IMG/VR virus record: IMGVR_UViG_3300017917_003898
Span: 1 to 37,504 of that record
Direction: 5' to 3' (one strand)
From: a virus
Length of the DNA: 37,504 nucleotides
The notes below the pieces were generated by a model. That model was not told where the DNA came from, did no database searches, and was given only the letters and a program-made list of their open reading frames with translations. Both the position numbers and the translations under genes were made by a program. Positions within the stretch are counted from its first letter, which is position 1, and every line of letters begins with the position of its first letter. Positions 657 through 26,925 of the stretch are shown piece by piece.

Positions 657-728
657 GGTTCCATAGTTAAATGGATATAACAAGACTCTTCTAAAGTCTG
701 GTTCGTGGTTCGATTCCACGTGGAACTA
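657..728 (+). tRNA. tRNA-Arg (anticodon TCT)
   Basis: This is a full cloverleaf: acceptor GGTTCCA/TGGAACT, D stem GTTA/TAAC, anticodon arm AGACT-CTTCTAA-AGTCT, T arm CGTGG-TTCGATT-CCACG. Anticodon TCT reads AGA/AGG, fitting an AT-rich phage whose arginine codons are often AGA. CCA is encoded at 729-731. Confidence 0.93.
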
Positions 729-735
729 CCAAAAG

Positions 736-809
736 GGATGCTTACAGCAATTTTTTTAACTATCAAACTTTTAATTTGAAAACAGTAAAAACACAGCATC
801 CTGTAACTT
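736..809 (+). ncRNA. Tandem structured RNA motif, copy 1
   Basis: Outer stem GGATGCT (736-742)/AGCATCC (795-801) is followed by the tail TGTAACTT. The 5' loop has ACAGCAATTTTT (744-755). An inner hairpin TCAAA (763-767)/TTTGA (775-779) follows. The outer stem sequence differs from copies 2-4 while the loop and tail motifs are kept, as expected of a real RNA structure. No known family was recognised. Confidence 0.6.
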
Positions 810-814
810 ATTAA

Positions 815-889
815 GGGCTTCTAACAGCAATTTTTAAAAACTCAAATTCCAAAATTATTTGACCGATAAAATAGAAGCCCGTAAATTTT
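815..889 (+). ncRNA. Tandem structured RNA motif, copy 2
   Basis: Outer stem GGGCTTCTA (815-823)/TAGAAGCCC (872-880) is nine perfect pairs. The loop starts with ACAGCAATTTTT (824-835). The inner hairpin is TCAAAT (842-847)/ATTTGA (857-862). The tail begins GTAAATTTT, a weaker match to the GTAACTT tail of the other copies. Confidence 0.6.
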
Positions 890-894
890 AAAAA

Positions 895-926
895 ATTCTT
901 TCAAAATAGCTTGGCTATGCGAAAGA
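895..926 (+). ncRNA. Hairpin between RNA motif copies 2 and 3
   Basis: TCTTTC (897-902) pairs with GAAAGA (921-926), and within it ATAGC (906-910) pairs with GCTAT (914-918) around a short loop. It is a well-formed two-part hairpin that does not carry the ACAGCAATT motif. It may be a processing site or spacer between RNA units. No T-run follows, so it is unlikely to be an intrinsic terminator. Confidence 0.4.
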
Positions 927-960
927 TTGTTATTATATTAACGACATAAAGAAATTAAAA

Positions 961-1022
961 AGGATTCAAACAGCAATTTTAAAAATTTCATTTGGATTGA
1001 AAATCAACGAATCCTGTAACTT
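961..1022 (+). ncRNA. Tandem structured RNA motif, copy 3
   Basis: Outer stem AGGATTC (961-967)/GAATCCT (1009-1015) is followed by GTAACTT (1016-1022). The loop carries ACAGCAATTTT (970-980). A weak inner hairpin with one bulged G lies at about 991-1007. The stem differs in sequence from copies 1, 2 and 4. Confidence 0.6.
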
Positions 1023-1024
1023 CT

Positions 1025-1134
1025 TGAGGTAATGAGTACAACCAGCAATTATTAAAACATATAAATTAATAATTACTAACTAACACCTCAGTCATCGACT
1101 CCCCTAGCCGATGCACGTACTCAGTAACACCTCA
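1025..1134 (+). ncRNA. Tandem structured RNA motif, copy 4 (expanded)
   Basis: Inner stem TGAGTAC (1033-1039)/GTACTCA (1117-1123) is enclosed by TGAGGT (1025-1030)/ACCTCA (1129-1134). The conserved CAGCAATTATTAAAA (1043-1057) follows the 5' stem and GTAAC (1124-1128) follows the 3' stem, as in the other copies. It is longer than they are, with about 40 extra bases before the closing strand. A second ACCTCA (1085-1090) offers a rival partner for TGAGGT. Confidence 0.5.
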
Positions 1135-1166
1135 AACATCGGCTAGGAACGGGTCATGATAGAGGT
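1085..1166 (+). promoter_or_regulatory. Multi-stem leader upstream of the Ro60-like gene
   Basis: CCTAGCCGATG (1103-1113) and CATCGGCTAGG (1137-1147) form an 11-bp perfect stem ending 54 bases before the start codon. It overlaps the copy-4 stem strand at 1117-1123, so the two folds cross. ACCTCA and CATCG each occur twice, at 1085/1129 and 1092/1137, allowing alternative pairings. GAGGT recurs at 1162-1166. This looks like a conformational switch or protein-binding leader. Autoregulation by the downstream RNA-binding protein is a reasonable but unproven reading. Confidence 0.45.
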
Positions 1167-1201: not shown

Positions 1202-2578
1202 ATGAGTAATTTAATTAACGCAATGAGACAAAAAGATGCCTTAACTGCTAATGGCGCTTTAACTAATTCTACTTCGTTGAATGCGGTTGTAGACATGTTT
1301 TTCTTAGCAGGTGCTTCTCGTAGAATGTCAGAACAAGATATTATTAATGTGTTTGTAAAAGCATATAATGAAGATCCTAACTTGGCTGTTAAGTGTTTGT
1401 TTTGGGCTCGTGACGTTAGAGGTGGTGCAGGTGAACGTAGGTTCTTCCAAGTCATCATGAAATATATTAGTGAAAACTATCCATCTGTTTTTGAATTTAA
1501 TATCCGTTTGACTCCAGAATATGGTTATTGGAAAGATGTTTTCAATGTTTTAACTCCAAACAGAACTGTTTTGGATTGGATGTCAGAACAATTAAATAAT
1601 CCTAATAGCGGATTGTTAGCTAAGTGGTTTCCACGTAGAGGTGTTTGGTTCTCTTCAATGCATAAGCATTTAGGAATGACTCCAAAAGAATTCCGTAAAA
1701 TGATTGTTGAAAAAACTAAAGTAGTTGAAACTACTATGTGTAATAAAGAATGGGGTGCTATTGAGTATTCTAAAATTCCATCACAAGCTTTCCAAAAATA
1801 TAAAAGAGCGTTTTTAAGAAACGATGAATCTAGATTCAATGATTTTATTAGCGCTGTTGTAAAAGGTGAAAGTAAAGTTAATTCAGGTACTTTATTCCCA
1901 TATCAATTATATAGATCATTCCTACAAGGTTTAGATAAAAATACAACTATGGCTCAATGGATGAATTTACCAGATTATGTTGGTGAAGGATCTTTTTTAC
2001 CTGTTTGTGACGTATCTGGTTCGATGATGGGTTTACCAATGGATATATCTATTTCTTTAGGTGTTTACTTATCAGAAAGAAATAGATCAGTATTTAAAGA
2101 TGCTTTTATTACTTTTTCTAGTGATCCAAAATTACAATATTTAAAAGGTAATATAATTGAAAGATTTAATCAATTACAAAGAGCTGAGTGGGGTATGTCA
2201 ACTAATTTACAAGCTGTATTTGATCTAGTATTAAATAAAGCAATTGAAAATAGATTATCTCAATCAGATTTGCCAGAAACTATTTTGATTATTTCAGATA
2301 TGGAATTTAATTATGCTTGTAGTGGTAGAACTAATTTTGAAGTAATTCAAGATAAATTTGAGGCTGCAGGTTATAAAATGCCAAAATTAGCTTTTTGGAA
2401 TGTAAATGGAAGAGAAGGTAATGTACCAGTATCCGCAGATACTAAAGATGTTGCCTTAATTTCAGGAGCTTCACCAGCAATCGTTAAAAACGTTTTAGCA
2501 GGTAAAGATTTTACTCCAAAAGGTATCATGTTGGAAACTCTATTGAGTGAAAGATATGAAAAAATTGTAGCTCTTTAA
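1202..2578 (+). CDS. Ro60/TROVE-like RNA-binding protein with vWA domain
   Basis: 458 residues. The N-terminal two thirds resembles the helical-repeat ring of the TROVE/Ro60 and related DUF2828 proteins, with the typical stretch around FWARDVRGGAGERRFF (about residues 67-82). The C-terminal third is a von Willebrand A fold with a complete MIDAS: D270-x-S272-x-S274, T334 and D366. Ro60 proteins bind Y RNAs and misfolded non-coding RNAs and, in bacteria, assist RNA processing and decay. Here the gene sits among tRNAs and just after clustered structured RNAs, which suits such a role. The start is ATG after an A-rich tract, with no Shine-Dalgarno. An 8-bp hairpin spans the stop codon. The family call is firm as a superfamily; DUF2828 versus classical Ro60 is not settled. 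Confidence 0.82.
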   Translation: MSNLINAMRQKDALTANGALTNSTSLNAVVDMFFLAGASRRMSEQDIINVFVKAYNEDPNLAVKCLFWARDVRGGAGERRFFQVIMKYISENYPSVFEFNIRLTPEYGYWKDVFNVLTPNRTVLDWMSEQLNNPNSGLLAKWFPRRGVWFSSMHKHLGMTPKEFRKMIVEKTKVVETTMCNKEWGAIEYSKIPSQAFQKYKRAFLRNDESRFNDFISAVVKGESKVNSGTLFPYQLYRSFLQGLDKNTTMAQWMNLPDYVGEGSFLPVCDVSGSMMGLPMDISISLGVYLSERNRSVFKDAFITFSSDPKLQYLKGNIIERFNQLQRAEWGMSTNLQAVFDLVLNKAIENRLSQSDLPETILIISDMEFNYACSGRTNFEVIQDKFEAAGYKMPKLAFWNVNGREGNVPVSADTKDVALISGASPAIVKNVLAGKDFTPKGIMLETLLSERYEKIVAL

Positions 2579-2593: not shown

Positions 2594-2667
2594 GGGCCTT
2601 TAGCTCAGTCGGTTAAAGCAGCGCTCTCATAAAGCGAAGATCACTGGTTCGAGTCCAGTATGGCCCA
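2594..2667 (+). tRNA. tRNA with CAT anticodon (Met or lysidine-Ile)
   Basis: The acceptor GGGCCTT/ATGGCCC has one mismatch. The D region TAGCTCAGTCGGTTAAAGC is canonical-like. The anticodon loop is CTCATAA with a four-pair stem, and the T arm is ACTGG-TTCGAGT-CCAGT. A CAT anticodon may be elongator Met or Ile2, which reads AUA after lysidine modification. The GGGCCTTTAGCTCAGT start recalls Ile2 tRNAs. Its last bases, with flanking C and T, are repeated exactly at 3107-3119 beyond the HNH gene. Confidence 0.85.
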
Positions 2668-2669
2668 CT
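2657..2669 (+). repeat. Direct repeat AGTATGGCCCACT, left copy in tRNA 3' end
   Basis: The 13 bases AGTATGGCCCACT cover the end of the T stem, the acceptor 3' strand and the next two bases. An identical copy lies at 3107-3119 right of the HNH gene, marking the ends of an inserted segment of about 450 bases. Confidence 0.8.
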
Positions 2670-4298: not shown

Positions 4299-4760
4299 GT
4301 GAAATCACTCGGGTTCCTTGTACTCTTATTGTTTCCTTTAACACTGTGTTCTCAAATTAAAGTTGATAAAGCAGGTGATGGATGGGATTCTATAGTTTAT
4401 TCAGCTATTAATCTTATTAAAAAAACATCTCCAATTCACTACGCAGTATTAACAGAAACAACACAAAATGTACAATTTTGGAACGAGGATTATTCATCAA
4501 ATAATGTAATAGAAGGAAAAGGTGTTATTGTAATTTCATCTCAAGATATTAAGTTAAACAGTTTAAATAATATAGCTGCTGCCTTAGTACATGAGAGTTA
4601 TCATTTGAAGTTTTTAAAATATGGTCCTGATTTAAGGGGTTATGAAGAAGAATATCAGTGTTATTTATTTGAACTAAAGTTTTTAAAGTTGTTGCCTAAT
4701 GTAGAACCTTATCTATTAGCAAATGTACATGAACAACTTAAACTTTGGAAAATAAAATGA
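4299..4760 (+). CDS. Exported HExxH-type peptidase-like protein
   Basis: 153 residues from a GTG start; the overlapping ATG two bases earlier meets a stop at once. The first ~18 residues (KSLGFLVLLLFPLTLCSQ) are a signal peptide. A cysteine near the cleavage point gives a weak lipobox. H98-E99-S-Y-H102 is an HExxH zinc-binding motif in a helix (ALVHESYHLKFL), followed by the acidic GYEEEYQ that could supply the third ligand. This suggests a small zinc metallopeptidase acting in the periplasm or at the outer membrane. The family is not recognised. Its end overlaps the next gene by ATGA, so the two are translated together. Confidence 0.6.
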   Translation: MKSLGFLVLLLFPLTLCSQIKVDKAGDGWDSIVYSAINLIKKTSPIHYAVLTETTQNVQFWNEDYSSNNVIEGKGVIVISSQDIKLNSLNNIAAALVHESYHLKFLKYGPDLRGYEEEYQCYLFELKFLKLLPNVEPYLLANVHEQLKLWKIK

Positions 4761-6646
4761 AAAAACTAATCTCAATTTTACTAACAGCAGTATTCTATTT
4801 AGGATTATCTGCACAATCAGCCACCACATCTCCTGGAACAGGACATTGGGTAGTTATTGATTCAGGATACAAAGTAGAAACCTACACAACTGGAAAAACA
4901 GTTGCTCCTTTGTATTTTTACAACACATCTACTATTAACAAAATTACTGGTTTGCAATTTAGAGTATTTTATGATAATACTGCTTTTACAGCTGTAGTAC
5001 CTTCATTAAAAATATCATCTTCAGATCAATATTTACAGTATACCGATAATAATACAAGTGGTTATTTGACGGTTACTGTTGTCTATACAGGCACTAATTC
5101 TACATTTAACTACTCTGATGGTGCTATGTTTGATTTAACGTTTACACACTCAAGTGCAACTGTTTGGAATACTTTAGATTCTATTAAATCATTAAAAATA
5201 TCAGGTGTAAGTTCATTTCCTAATTTAGCTTCAAGTAACTATGGTAATGATACTACATTAACTGTTTATTCTTACGGTGGTCGTTTCAATCAGAAAATGT
5301 TAAGATTTGCTGGTAAATTTATTAATACTACTGGTACTAATTCTAAGAATTTATGGGTAAGTTTAGAAAAGAAAGCACCAGGTGGATCTTGGACTACAGT
5401 AATGTCTAAATCAACTAACTCAAATGGTGTAGTTGTTTTCTATAAAAATATAGATACTACTTATTGGGATGTTAGAATGGCAGTTAAAGGAGATACAATG
5501 ACTCCTGGTTCTGTATTCTCAACAGCTGATGCTCAAAAGATTAACCAAGTAATGTTGGGTACTTATACTCCTAAAGGATTTGATTATTATTCTATGGATG
5601 TAAATGCAGCAGATGGTAATATTACAATTGCAGACGTTTATTCAGTTTATGGTAGATTAGCAGGTAGATTTACTAAATGGCCTAATTCTCAAAATGATGT
5701 TAAATTCTTTACAGTAGCAGAATATAATACTATTAATGCTTCTTCAAATAACTATACTTCAACTATTGCTGGTGTTACTAATTTCTATTACACTATTGAT
5801 GGTAAAGATTCTATTACTTATTATGTAAATGTTAAAGGTGATGCTAATGGTACTGGTTTTAAAATGGCTCGTTTAACACCTATTAAAATTATCAACCCAG
5901 CAAATGCTAATAAATATATAATTGATAATACCGTTTCATATGACAATGTTATAGAAACTATAGAAGTTAATATGCCTAAAATAACTGTTGACCAAGGTAA
6001 TTTAGTTAATGTACCTGTTAAAGTATTAACTAAAGGAAAACAATTAGGTGCATTTCAATTAGAATTAAAATATGATACTGCTTTATTAGAATTTAGAAAA
6101 ATTGATTTAACTGAAAAAATGATGAACTGGACCTCATTCACTAATCCTGATAATGGGATAGTTGCTTTCGGTGCTGCTGATTTAAAAGGTGATCAATTAT
6201 TAAATGATGGTGAGACAGTAATGAATTTACAATTTATAGCTAAAAAACCTCAAGCTGATTGGGGTACAGCAGCTGTTTGGACTGGTCCTAAATTTGTAGG
6301 AGGTAATGATGCTAGAGATATGAATATTACTCCTGCTATGGGTATAATTGAAGTAAGAAGAATTCAAAATACTACTGTTGTTAAAGGTTTAGAAAAAATA
6401 ATTGTTTATCCAAACCCAACTCAAGGTGAAGTAGTAGTTGAATTTAAAGTAGAATATGATTCAGAAGTAGAATTGAATGTAAATGATTTAATAGGAAAAA
6501 GAGTATTAGAAATTTTAAATCAAAGAATGCCTTCAGGCAGTTACAAATATATTGTAAAGTTAGATCAGTTAGCTAACGGTATGTATATTATGTCTTTACA
6601 GACTAGTACAACAGCTACTTCTCATAAAATATTTATAAATAAATGA
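4757..6646 (+). CDS. T9SS-sorted secreted protein with cohesin-like and dockerin-like modules
   Basis: 629 residues from the ATG at 4757, which overlaps the previous stop as ATGA; an upstream in-frame ATG at 4745 would put four extra residues before the signal peptide and is less likely. MKKLISILLTAVFYLGLSAQS is a Sec signal peptide. Two beta domains (about 30-165 and 410-530) resemble cohesin-type folds. Between them DVNAADGNITIADVY (from D281) is a dockerin/EF-hand-like calcium loop. The last ~80 residues match the T9SS type A sorting domain: VYPNP (Y551-P554), a central DLIGKRVLE, then LANGMYIMSLQ and KIFINK. T9SS exports such cargo across the outer membrane of Bacteroidota and removes this domain. 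The phage would therefore use a host secretion system to place this protein on or outside the cell. Its purpose is unknown. Confidence 0.78.
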   Translation: MKKLISILLTAVFYLGLSAQSATTSPGTGHWVVIDSGYKVETYTTGKTVAPLYFYNTSTINKITGLQFRVFYDNTAFTAVVPSLKISSSDQYLQYTDNNTSGYLTVTVVYTGTNSTFNYSDGAMFDLTFTHSSATVWNTLDSIKSLKISGVSSFPNLASSNYGNDTTLTVYSYGGRFNQKMLRFAGKFINTTGTNSKNLWVSLEKKAPGGSWTTVMSKSTNSNGVVVFYKNIDTTYWDVRMAVKGDTMTPGSVFSTADAQKINQVMLGTYTPKGFDYYSMDVNAADGNITIADVYSVYGRLAGRFTKWPNSQNDVKFFTVAEYNTINASSNNYTSTIAGVTNFYYTIDGKDSITYYVNVKGDANGTGFKMARLTPIKIINPANANKYIIDNTVSYDNVIETIEVNMPKITVDQGNLVNVPVKVLTKGKQLGAFQLELKYDTALLEFRKIDLTEKMMNWTSFTNPDNGIVAFGAADLKGDQLLNDGETVMNLQFIAKKPQADWGTAAVWTGPKFVGGNDARDMNITPAMGIIEVRRIQNTTVVKGLEKIIVYPNPTQGEVVVEFKVEYDSEVELNVNDLIGKRVLEILNQRMPSGSYKYIVKLDQLANGMYIMSLQTSTTATSHKIFINK

Positions 6647-8030: not shown

Positions 8031-9435
8031 AATATTAATTATATTAATGATTATTGGATTGCCCCTTTGTGGGCAATCCTTTACTTATAGTTATATAGAT
8101 CCGTGTACTCATGAGATAAAATACATAAATGCGGATATGTCTGCTCCTATAATGGTAGCTTATTATGGACAAGTACAGGCGTTTACTTACATTCAATTAA
8201 GTGATGGTACATTTGATAATTGGTTGAATAATATTTATAACAAATATAAATCTACCTCTCCATGTCAAGGTGTTATTACAACTACAACAACTACAACCTC
8301 AACAAACCAAGTATCGAATATAATAACTAATGTTACTAGTTTAGTAAGTTTAGATTTATCTTCAGTAACTTCAGGTGTAAGTGGTGGTGTAGGAAATAAT
8401 GTAGGAGGAACAGCATCTTCAGGTTCAGGTAGTGTATCCTCAGAAAATAAAAAAGAAAATGGTACTAATAATAACTCTAATGACCCTAACTCTAGTAGTA
8501 CTAGTGATGGATCTAGTAATAACTCGTCAGAGGGACAAACAGGACAAAATGGTGGAAACTCATCAGAAAATCAAGGCGGGTCTAATGGAGGAGGAGGTGT
8601 AAATGGAAACAATAATTCCAATTCTAATTCAGGGGGCTCTAGCGGTAGCTCTGGTAGTGGGGGTAGTAAGACTGATTCTAAAGGAGAGACCCCGAAAGAA
8701 GAAAAACCAAATGAACAGAAAGTAGAGGAACAAAAAACCGAAACTCAAAAATCACAAACTCAATCAACAGCAAAAGCAGCTGCTAAAGCTAAAACCGAAA
8801 CTCAAAAACCTGCTATTTTATTAACAGGAGATATTGTTGGGATTCAAACTAAAGCTAATGGTAATCAAGATGCTAGAGCCACTATGTCTTTTACTCGTGT
8901 AAAAGGAGATGGAACTGCATCTTTAGGTTTATCAGCAGATTATATGGTTAACGCTAAAATAGGTAATTTTTCAGGTATTCGTTCTTGGATTGGTACTAAT
9001 AAAAAAGGCAATAAACATATTAATATTGTTTCCGGAGGGTTTGGTTTAATGCCCCAATCTACATCAGGAAATTTATTATTTGTAAGGGTTAACTCAATTA
9101 AATCATTTACTGCTTTATATGGTGCTGCTGGTACTTATGGTAAATTATATGGGGAAGAATTAATATCAACTATTGCTATTGCTGGTTTTATGTATAAAGG
9201 AAAATTAACTAAATCAATAGATGCTACAATTATTGCTGCTGGTATTTATTCTCCTTATCAAAAATATTATACTGAATCTTTATTTAAAGCAAAACCTATT
9301 GTTATTCCATTTTTAAATCTAAATTATAGGTTAACTAAAACTTTTGGAATAGGATTAACAGCAGGTGGCACTTATATATCAGGGGAAGATATATTAAATT
9401 ATCAAATACTAATGGGAGCTAAATTAAAATTATGA
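8011..9435 (+). CDS. Exported outer-membrane-type protein with low-complexity linker
   Basis: 474 residues. The signal peptide ends near LPLCGQS (about residue 22). Residues ~25-85 form a small Cys-containing domain. Residues ~90-260 are low-complexity: a Thr run, then Ser/Gly/Asn repeats, then Lys/Glu/Gln/Thr repeats. The last ~200 residues (from ILLTGDIVG) alternate polar and hydrophobic residues and end in strands such as FGIGLTAGGTYI and ILMGAKLKL, as in outer-membrane beta barrels. It overlaps the CsgG-like gene by 20 bases. It could anchor an extended surface structure or act in superinfection exclusion. No family was recognised. Confidence 0.5.
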   Translation: MASLKTKILIILMIIGLPLCGQSFTYSYIDPCTHEIKYINADMSAPIMVAYYGQVQAFTYIQLSDGTFDNWLNNIYNKYKSTSPCQGVITTTTTTTSTNQVSNIITNVTSLVSLDLSSVTSGVSGGVGNNVGGTASSGSGSVSSENKKENGTNNNSNDPNSSSTSDGSSNNSSEGQTGQNGGNSSENQGGSNGGGGVNGNNNSNSNSGGSSGSSGSGGSKTDSKGETPKEEKPNEQKVEEQKTETQKSQTQSTAKAAAKAKTETQKPAILLTGDIVGIQTKANGNQDARATMSFTRVKGDGTASLGLSADYMVNAKIGNFSGIRSWIGTNKKGNKHINIVSGGFGLMPQSTSGNLLFVRVNSIKSFTALYGAAGTYGKLYGEELISTIAIAGFMYKGKLTKSIDATIIAAGIYSPYQKYYTESLFKAKPIVIPFLNLNYRLTKTFGIGLTAGGTYISGEDILNYQILMGAKLKL

Positions 9436-10583
9436 GGTGGATTATTATTTTCTTTTTAATCACTAATTCCTTATTAGCACAATTTACTTACTCAGGTTAT
9501 CTTTATAATGCAAATGGTTCAGGTGCTTATAATGTACCTGTTAAACTTTATAAACGAACTACAACCACTACAGGTAATAATTCAACATCTGTCAGAATTT
9601 TTAAAACCCATAATAGTAATGGTAGTACTAATCAATATCAAGCTTATCCTTCAACAAGATCAGAAATGGATAGATGTTTTAGTACAGCTTATTCCAATAC
9701 AGTTTTATATTGGACAGGTTCATTATCAGGAAATGCATCTTTAAATTTTGGTTCTTATTCAACTTTAACATCCTATGGAGCTTCAGTTCCAAATGGAGGT
9801 GAATATTTTTCAACAGAAGTTACTTTTACTTTCACCCCCGCAGAATCAGGAACTTATTCATTTGGTTTAACATCAGATGATGGAGGTGATTTATGGCTTG
9901 TAAATTATGGTAGTGTAATTGAGTGGTATGGAGGTAAAGGAACAGGACAATATAAATATGGTAGTGTAAATTTAACAGCAGGTACCTCTTATTCATTTAT
10001 AGCTAGAATGCAAGAGTATGGAGGTGGAGAAGGACTTTATGTTAACTGGAAACGACCATCACAATCTGGTTATTCTTATCAATCTTCAGAAATAGGAACA
10101 GTAACTACTACAACCTCATCTTGGACATTAGATGCAACTTCATATACTAATTCATCAGGTTATTATTCTTTTTCTAGAACTACTACTAGTAATACAGAAT
10201 GGTATATTCAAATTGATGCCCCTACTAGAATTCAAGCTTATACAACAACTGATTTGCAAGCAGTTTCAAATATTATTTTAGAGAAAACTTCCAAAACAGG
10301 TTTATCATTTCATATGTTTGATGTTAATGATGATGGAAGATTGGATGTGGCAGATGAATATTATATTTCTGCAAGACAAAAAGCAATTTTTAATAAATGG
10401 AGAATAGCACCTGATGTAAGAATATTTACAACCTCAGAATACAATTCTATTACTTCTTCTTCCAATAATGTTAGAACTATATATCCAGGAGTTGCTTCTT
10501 ATGCAACTTCAACCTTAACATCTGGTGGTACTCTAAATCTTTATATTATTGCTCCTGGTTATGCAGGATCAGTTTCTTATTAA
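9432..10583 (+). CDS. Secreted PA14-domain protein with dockerin-like C-terminal module
   Basis: 383 residues; starts by ATGA overlap with the previous gene. A signal peptide ends near LLAQF (about residue 18). Residues ~60-210 look like a PA14 domain: FSTEVTFTFTPAESGTYSFGLTSDDGGDLWL, then SYSFIARMQEYGGGEGLYVNW. PA14 is a sugar-binding or protein-binding beta barrel. D297-V-N-D-D-G-R-L-D is an EF-hand/dockerin-like loop. The following KW..DVRIFTTSEYNSITSSSNN repeats a stretch of the T9SS cargo at 4757, so the two share a module. No T9SS sorting domain is visible at its C-terminus. Confidence 0.6.
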   Translation: MRWIIIFFLITNSLLAQFTYSGYLYNANGSGAYNVPVKLYKRTTTTTGNNSTSVRIFKTHNSNGSTNQYQAYPSTRSEMDRCFSTAYSNTVLYWTGSLSGNASLNFGSYSTLTSYGASVPNGGEYFSTEVTFTFTPAESGTYSFGLTSDDGGDLWLVNYGSVIEWYGGKGTGQYKYGSVNLTAGTSYSFIARMQEYGGGEGLYVNWKRPSQSGYSYQSSEIGTVTTTTSSWTLDATSYTNSSGYYSFSRTTTSNTEWYIQIDAPTRIQAYTTTDLQAVSNIILEKTSKTGLSFHMFDVNDDGRLDVADEYYISARQKAIFNKWRIAPDVRIFTTSEYNSITSSSNNVRTIYPGVASYATSTLTSGGTLNLYIIAPGYAGSVSY

Positions 10584-26230: not shown

Positions 26231-26246
26231 AAAACTAAAATTAAAT

Positions 26247-26254
26247 ATATTTAT
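26247..26254 (+). promoter_or_regulatory. ATATTTAT motif before 26272 gene
   Basis: ATATTTAT lies 17 bases before the ATG at 26272, within an AT-rich 41-base gap after the large tail gene. It would drive the three tail genes that follow. Confidence 0.5.
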
Positions 26255-26271
26255 AACAAATAATAAAAAAC

Positions 26272-26925
26272 ATGGGATACTTAAATAATAGTGTAGTAAC
26301 CGTAGATGCAATTTTAACAACTAAAGGTCGTGAATTACTAGCTAAAAATGATGGTTCATTTAGAATTACTCAATTTGCTTTAGCAGACGATGAAATTGAT
26401 TATACCCTTTATAATCCAACTCACCCTTCAGGATCTGCTTATTATGGAGAAGCAATAGCTAATATGCCTTTACTTGAAGCGTTTCCTCAAGAAACACAGA
26501 TGATGAAATATAAACTTACAACTTTACCTCGTGGTACAGCTAAAATGCCTATTCTAGATTTAGGTTATTCAGCTATTACTATTAAACAAGGTGCAAGTTT
26601 AGCAATTACTCCTCAAACTTTAAATTATTTAGGTGGTAATACATTTGAATCAAGTGGATATACAGCTACTATTTCAGATGTAAGATTATTTTCAACATTT
26701 GAAGGTGTAGGTATTAATACTCCTGCAGCAATTGCTTTAAATAGTACTACAACTTTAGGAACTAATGTGTCTAAAACAGTAGTAGGTACTACAATTAATT
26801 TAAGAGCAACTACTGTAAATACTTTATTTGGTTCTAATTCTGCTTTATATGCTACATTAACTGTAGAAGGTAGAGATAGTGGAGCTCGTTTAACAATTCC
26901 TGTAACTGTAACTAAAATATCTTAA
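26272..26925 (+). CDS. Conserved phage virion protein with Ig-like C-terminus
   Basis: 217 residues. The N-terminal ILTTKGRELLAKNDGSFRITQFALADDEIDYTLY and YYGEAIANMPLLEAFPQETQMMKYKL are strongly patterned stretches typical of a structural protein found in tail regions of T4-like phages of Bacteroidota and cyanobacteria. The C-terminal ~70 residues (LFGSNSALYATLTVEGRDSGARLTIPVTV) look like an Ig-like fold. Likely a tail or baseplate component. It heads a three-gene group with short gaps. Confidence 0.6.
   Translation: MGYLNNSVVTVDAILTTKGRELLAKNDGSFRITQFALADDEIDYTLYNPTHPSGSAYYGEAIANMPLLEAFPQETQMMKYKLTTLPRGTAKMPILDLGYSAITIKQGASLAITPQTLNYLGGNTFESSGYTATISDVRLFSTFEGVGINTPAAIALNSTTTLGTNVSKTVVGTTINLRATTVNTLFGSNSALYATLTVEGRDSGARLTIPVTVTKIS

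Follow-up and report, generated by a model that had tools for sequence, protein, structure and literature searches.

The first 1.2 kb of a 37,504-nucleotide viral record (IMG/VR: IMGVR_UViG_3300017917_003898; 37.5 kb, hereafter called the window) contain a tRNA cluster and four short repeated units, followed by the gene for a Ro60-like protein of 458 amino acids and a tRNA-Met gene. We propose, with a probability of roughly 0.8, that the units are genes for short Y RNAs which bind the phage's own DUF2828-type Ro60-like ring protein, where both the binding and the expression are predicted. The same motif is found close to highly diverse DUF2828-type Ro genes of phages, bacteria and one archaeon, on the strand of the Ro gene. 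This recurrence supports the original prediction, made from the letters of the window, that the units are candidate RNA partners of the Ro60-like protein.

All four units, which had been described as sharing one architecture, are present in the window, and the positions of their stems, CAGCAA and GTAA motifs were verified (Table 1). Their common plan is a stem of 7-9 bp, CAGCAA at 10 nt from the first base of the stem and GTAA immediately 3' of the 3' strand. Unit 1 starts 4 nt past the tRNA-Arg gene and the outermost pair of its stem is G-U, while unit 4 has an additional outer helix of 7 bp that had not been noticed before. The inner TCAAA/TTTGA hairpin reported for the first two copies is found in the window, but the second copy lacks it in two related loci (L006 and L008).

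The folding energy favours units 2 (z -3.8) and 4 (z -6.0) and, taken alone, leaves units 1 (z -0.9) and 3 (z -1.0) unsupported. Single-sequence folding was therefore dropped as proof of structure and the case for the units rests on comparison. In eight close relatives, whose Ro proteins are 86-93% identical to that of the window, all four units are syntenic and in the same order. Across seven aligned sequences, standard pairs occupy 99% of the pair cells, compared with 30-43% when the partners are slid, and compensatory double changes are found at three pairs and at none in the slid controls. The reading of the varying stems as covariation thus holds in the relatives, and many homologous copies with compensatory changes were found, the lack of which had been named as speaking against the idea. 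We prefer this syntenic count, because stem covariation among units picked by the descriptor introduced below is partly circular. Units of the same architecture are also located upstream of Ro genes whose proteins are only about 50% identical (L012 and L013).

At E <= 0.001 the window Ro protein matches DUF2828 and DUF7788 as its only Pfam families, and TROVE (Pfam: PF05731) is not matched. Since neither the protein sequence nor its profile clearly matched a solved structure, the fold was obtained by prediction. The AlphaFold model, built with 44 relatives, has a predicted local distance difference test score (pLDDT) of 89.7 and a predicted template modelling score (pTM) of 0.88. It shows the helical-repeat ring and vWA domain of the Ro60 fold and aligns with Ro60 bound to misfolded RNA with Z 22.9 over 403 residues, and with Ro60 complexed with RNAs with Z 22.5. 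The top three Foldseek hits of the model are a TROVE structure, Rsr and Ro60. The overall fold is common to Ro60/Rsr and the Ro60 of Thermus phage phiLo (PDB: 2i91, 2nvo and 9l5y; Z 22.9, 12.2 and 14.8), although the identity to these structures is only 10-16% and DUF2828/DUF7788 take the place of TROVE. Based on the Pfam annotation together with the structural match to Ro60, the gene is predicted to encode a Ro60-fold protein of the DUF2828 branch, in agreement with the Ro60-like gene originally placed next to the units. Matches to the window Ro protein are found in 682 phage records.

We searched for further units with a strict descriptor, derived from units of the named phages given below and requiring a 7-bp stem with at most one G-U pair, CAGCA or CAGCG at 9-10 nt after the stem start (usually 10), G[T/A] right after the 3' strand and a loop of 25-169 nt. 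In 26 representative loci it detected 51 matches, all of them on the Ro strand and 44 no more than 1.2 kb from the gene (shuffles: 3.4 +- 2.1). This set helped to make the descriptor, so the count is no test. The unchanged descriptor was thus applied to held-out loci picked by protein alone, 77 of them viral and 80 bacterial or archaeal. The viral loci have 57 units within 1.2 kb on the Ro strand, distributed over 41 loci, and six farther away, against six matches in total on the other strand, two of them near (shuffles: 3.6 +- 2.0). The bacterial and archaeal loci have 61 near units on the Ro strand, in 35 loci, against three near ones on the other strand (shuffles: 8.0 +- 2.5). The shuffle figures include one-strand matches at any position of the shuffled loci and are therefore too high as a chance rate for the vicinity of Ro. 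Some held-out loci are close kin, for example L045/L046 and L059-L069, and hence not all of these units are independent. Relatives were missed when genomes were scanned with the window protein alone, but were recovered with a protein alignment.

In addition, a covariance model, R1, was built from 40 viral units including units 1-3 of the window. On the 80 cellular loci all 38 R1 matches at E <= 0.1 are located on the Ro strand, the best of them on a Woesearchaeota contig (E 7e-8). Furthermore, R1 matches all 13 Ro-phage genomes tested, several of which supplied training units, and has no match in T4, phiKZ and SPO1, three phages without DUF2828.

Several observations weigh against units as RNA partners of Ro. 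With the strict descriptor, 36 of the 77 viral and 45 of the 80 cellular Ro loci have no unit within 1.2 kb; of the Ro phages without a near unit, some have units elsewhere and others may lack them. Moreover, the R1 matches are weak in Lak-B5 (E 0.05) and ME3 (E 0.008), and known YrlA RNAs and the window units each score below the Rfam gathering score of the other.

The position of the units relative to Ro differs between phages. Tandem units beside the Ro-like gene occur in Listeria phage A511 (three), Campylobacter phage F352 (two), Enterococcus phage EFDG1 (three), Synechococcus phage BUCT-ZZ01 (three) and Aeromonas phage LAh_8 (seven), and a single unit is present in Fusobacterium phage Fnu1. 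Downstream of Ro there are three units each in Staphylococcus phage S-CoN_Ph5 and the Mycobacterium phages Loadrie and JoeDirt. The units of Felix O1 and Citrobacter phage Moogle lie between tRNA genes directly after Ro. Those of KVP40, the 735-kb phage LR756501 and Ochrobactrum phage OC are in or near tRNA clusters farther from Ro. The upstream position described originally applies to the window but is not essential.

A cis-acting leader of the Ro mRNA, by which Ro would bind and control its own synthesis without a free RNA being made, could explain why all four window units precede the gene. It would also fit a pseudoknot helix which overlaps the last unit and ends 36 nt ahead of the Ro start codon, a feature conserved in relatives. 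This helix is part of a long hairpin (-36.5 kcal/mol, z -6.2; Table 1) whose loop contains the 3' strands of unit 4, so that the unit and the hairpin either coexist as a pseudoknot or are mutually exclusive. A helix of 10-15 bp between the loop of the last unit and the sequence behind this unit occurs in the clade of the window and in L012, L013, L040, L042, L043, L045 and L054. The helix sequences differ between lineages and only 0-2 of 200 shuffles are equally good. A reading of the hairpin as a terminator was rejected, because no T run follows it. We consider a leader of this kind unlikely. Units away from Ro, as in KVP40, LR756501 and Ochrobactrum phage OC, argue against a purely cis-acting role, as do those downstream of Ro in the Mycobacterium and Staphylococcus phages and in many viral loci. 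Furthermore, the pseudoknot was not found in Listeria, Campylobacter and several other loci. Where it exists, a role in the self-regulation of Ro is a guess.

The frequent position of units beside or within tRNA clusters in many phages might also suggest by-products of these clusters, such as spacers, processing signals or decayed tRNAs. This is very improbable, since T4 has a tRNA cluster yet neither DUF2828 nor an R1 unit, tRNA genes are missing from all six unit-bearing cellular Ro loci examined, and the form of the units is unlike that of a tRNA.

At its gathering scores Rfam detects only tRNAs in the window. The motif, originally called unrecognised, does have matches below that threshold to the Dictyostelium Class I RNA (Rfam: RF01414), an orphan class regarded as unique to social amoebae. 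This model aligns end to end with unit 1 (30.7 bits) and unit 3 (25.9 bits), short of its gathering score of 41.5, and its best score outside the window is 37.1 bits, again below 41.5. When run on whole records, RF01414 picks units in the Listeria, Staphylococcus, Mycobacterium, Felix O1, KVP40, LR756501, LAh_8, Moogle, Fnu1 and BUCT-ZZ01 phages, and in a Woesearchaeota genome of 1.7 Mb its top match is the unit next to Ro. In other genomes with Ro, matches were either doubtful or absent. T4, without DUF2828, has one match of 24.3 bits, and because the model alone is unspecific near this score, only those RF01414 matches were counted that the descriptor or R1 also supported.

The hallmarks of Class I RNAs are an AAG start, a short covarying stem, an 11-nt motif by the 5' strand, a CUGU end, a length of about 60 nt and clustered genes (PMC7919456). 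By their sequence, the window units appear largely to share them. The ends are joined by a short stem whose structure is kept and whose sequence is not. The motif by the 5' strand is present as CUUACAGCAA in unit 1, ACAGCAA in units 2 and 3 and CAGCAA in unit 4; in the form TTACAGCAA it is common to units and Class I RNAs, as are the length of about 60 nt, the clustering, AAG before or at the stem and a variable, A-rich loop. The 3' end is CTGT, as in Class I, in units 1 and 3, CCGT in unit 2 and CAGT in unit 4. Differences are the scores below cut-off, a linker shorter by 1 nt and the phage or prokaryote host. The DUSE promoter element of Class I genes, about 60 nt upstream, is amoebal and not expected in a phage. 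According to PMC7919456 no Class I RNA was found outside Dictyostelia. We give an even chance to the idea that Class I RNAs are the same kind of RNA as the units, that is Y RNAs and partners of a putative DUF2828-type Ro60, in a ribonucleoprotein spread over phages, bacteria, at least one archaeon and amoebae.

Class I RNAs also bear on another reading, in which the units act as small regulatory RNAs. Their variable loops would pair with mRNAs of the host or the phage, and the terminal module would serve another protein than Ro, or stability alone. Variable loops between fixed ends, as observed in the units, would suit this reading, and Class I RNAs were proposed to act on mRNAs, with one of them binding the RRM protein Rnp1A (PMC7919456). 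Since the units are tightly linked to DUF2828-type Ro genes in phages, bacteria and an archaeon, and R1 units are lacking in the three phages without DUF2828, the regulatory reading is improbable, more so than a cis-acting leader.

The units share two features with Y RNAs, namely a gene near a Ro60-family gene and 5' and 3' ends joined by a covarying helix. Chen et al. (2014; doi 10.1261/rna.047241.114) reportedly described Y RNAs encoded near Ro60 genes in bacteria and phages, and PMC12282133 cites this work for mycobacteriophages. Y RNAs near phage Ro genes are therefore known in principle, whereas the CAGCAA module and the link to amoebae appear to be new; the literature searched, which did not cover Chen 2014 or Sim and Wolin, gave no earlier account of the module, its breadth or the likeness to Class I.

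The bacterial Y RNA family YrlA (Rfam: RF02553) resembles the units in being encoded near a Ro60-fold protein and in having its ends joined by a stem, but its consensus is without the CAGCAA/GUAA module. The RF02553 model has no match to the window units, which lack the permuted tRNA module. In some relatives the two are combined: the terminal module encloses a permuted tRNA (T arm, acceptor, D arm) in two units of EFDG1 and in one each of JoeDirt and Felix O1, identified by eye in Felix O1. On the EFDG1 and JoeDirt units RF02553 gives E 7e-7, 9e-4 and 2.5e-5, all under the gathering score; the best score in relatives is 44.9 bits (EFDG1) compared with a gathering score of 69 bits. The permuted tRNA of YrlA type inside these longer units connects the module with Y RNAs. 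Next to six TROVE-type Ro genes from Bacillota there was no R1 match with an E value below 0.3, and four of the six have YrlA-like matches nearby. The CAGCAA module thus seems to go with DUF2828-type Ro.

Listeria phage CKA15, a relative of A511, is described with three abundant non-coding regions less than 2 kb upstream of an Rsr-like gene (PMC12282133). The unit array of A511 is located at 25.29-25.55 kb. We rejected the most abundant CKA15 transcript, at 26,236-26,727 (PMC12282133), as a candidate for the units, because the equivalent A511 coordinates match ROOL RNA (Rfam: RF03087). The ROOL match (L017, 2507-3058; 87.5 bits, E 2.6e-16, just below the cut-off of 99.1) falls on the coordinates of this transcript.

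If the units are Y RNAs of the DUF2828-type Ro, the tRNA cluster, units and Ro gene would be read in one direction and tRNA-processing enzymes may help to release the units. The 7-bp stem would then present TTACAGCAA on the 5' side and GU(U/A)A on the 3' side, and this terminal module, judged by conservation and linkage, would be the binding site for Ro. By analogy with known Y RNAs and Rsr/Ro60, the variable loop, A-rich in most units and a YrlA-type permuted tRNA in some, might gate or tether the activity of Ro, which is probably the handling of damaged or misfolded structured RNAs during infection. In the wider clade of the window, the overlap of the last unit with the pseudoknot helix before the gene may, speculatively, allow Ro autoregulation. 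The Ro60-like proteins of phages and bacteria, a large family, would thereby gain a defined RNA partner recognised through a simple module, Y RNAs would extend beyond the YrlA type, and the short conserved elements in the tRNA clusters of well-studied phages such as Felix O1, A511 and KVP40 would be explained. Dictyostelium Class I RNAs would gain a testable class of protein partner.

Table 1. Features of the unit array and the adjoining genes in the window.
Feature	Position	Strand	Details
tRNA-Arg (TCT)	657..731	+	final tRNA of the cluster ahead of unit 1
Unit 1	735..806	+	stem 735-742/795-802, TTACAGCAA 742-750, GTAA 803-806; R1 53 bits, in R1 training
Unit 2	815..884	+	stem 815-823/872-880, ACAGCAA 824-830, GTAA 881-884; R1 49 bits, in R1 training
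Unit 3	961..1019	+	stem 961-967/1009-1015, ACAGCAA 970-976, GTAA 1016-1019; R1 52.3 bits, in R1 training
Unit 4	1024..1135	+	inner stem 1033-1039/1117-1123, outer helix 1024-1030/1129-1135, CAGCAA 1043-1048, GTAA 1124-1127; R1 21.2 bits, outside R1 training
Long hairpin	1085..1165	+	includes pseudoknot helix 1103-1113/1137-1147; overlaps unit 4; from folding and relatives
Ro60-like protein gene	1202..2578	+	DUF2828/DUF7788, PHROG 850
tRNA-Met (CAT)	2594..2668	+	directly 3' of the Ro gene

Some further elements were observed in and around the tRNA clusters. Positions 160-234 of the window look like a tRNA-Ala (TGC), which ARAGORN missed in the window and called at the equivalent place in relatives. 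Between tRNA-Asp and tRNA-Ser, a further conserved structured stretch (432-556) is closed by a perfect 10-bp repeat, AAAGAAAAGC/GCTTTTCTTT, and contains GGTAGGCGTCACTCATTGCAC, which is conserved in relatives; it has no Rfam match. In L006, tRNA-Ser and tRNA-Arg are separated by an insert of about 100 nt (approximately 1640-1744), also found in L007 and L008 and absent from the window. A freshwater-1 RNA (Rfam: RF02979) was detected within the tRNA cluster of a relative (L009, 4899-4960) with 74.3 bits compared with a cut-off of 72. In EFDG1 (L025, 65-415) there is a tmRNA match (Rfam: RF00023) of 140.6 bits close to the phage tRNAs. An NsiR1 match (Rfam: RF02399) of 38.6 bits, with a cut-off of 39, overlaps the end of a Ro-associated unit (L082, 4961-5015). 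Elsewhere in the window, genes at 4745-6646 and 9432-10583 have cohesin, Por secretion tail and PA14 domains, pointing to Bacteroidota as the host of the virus.
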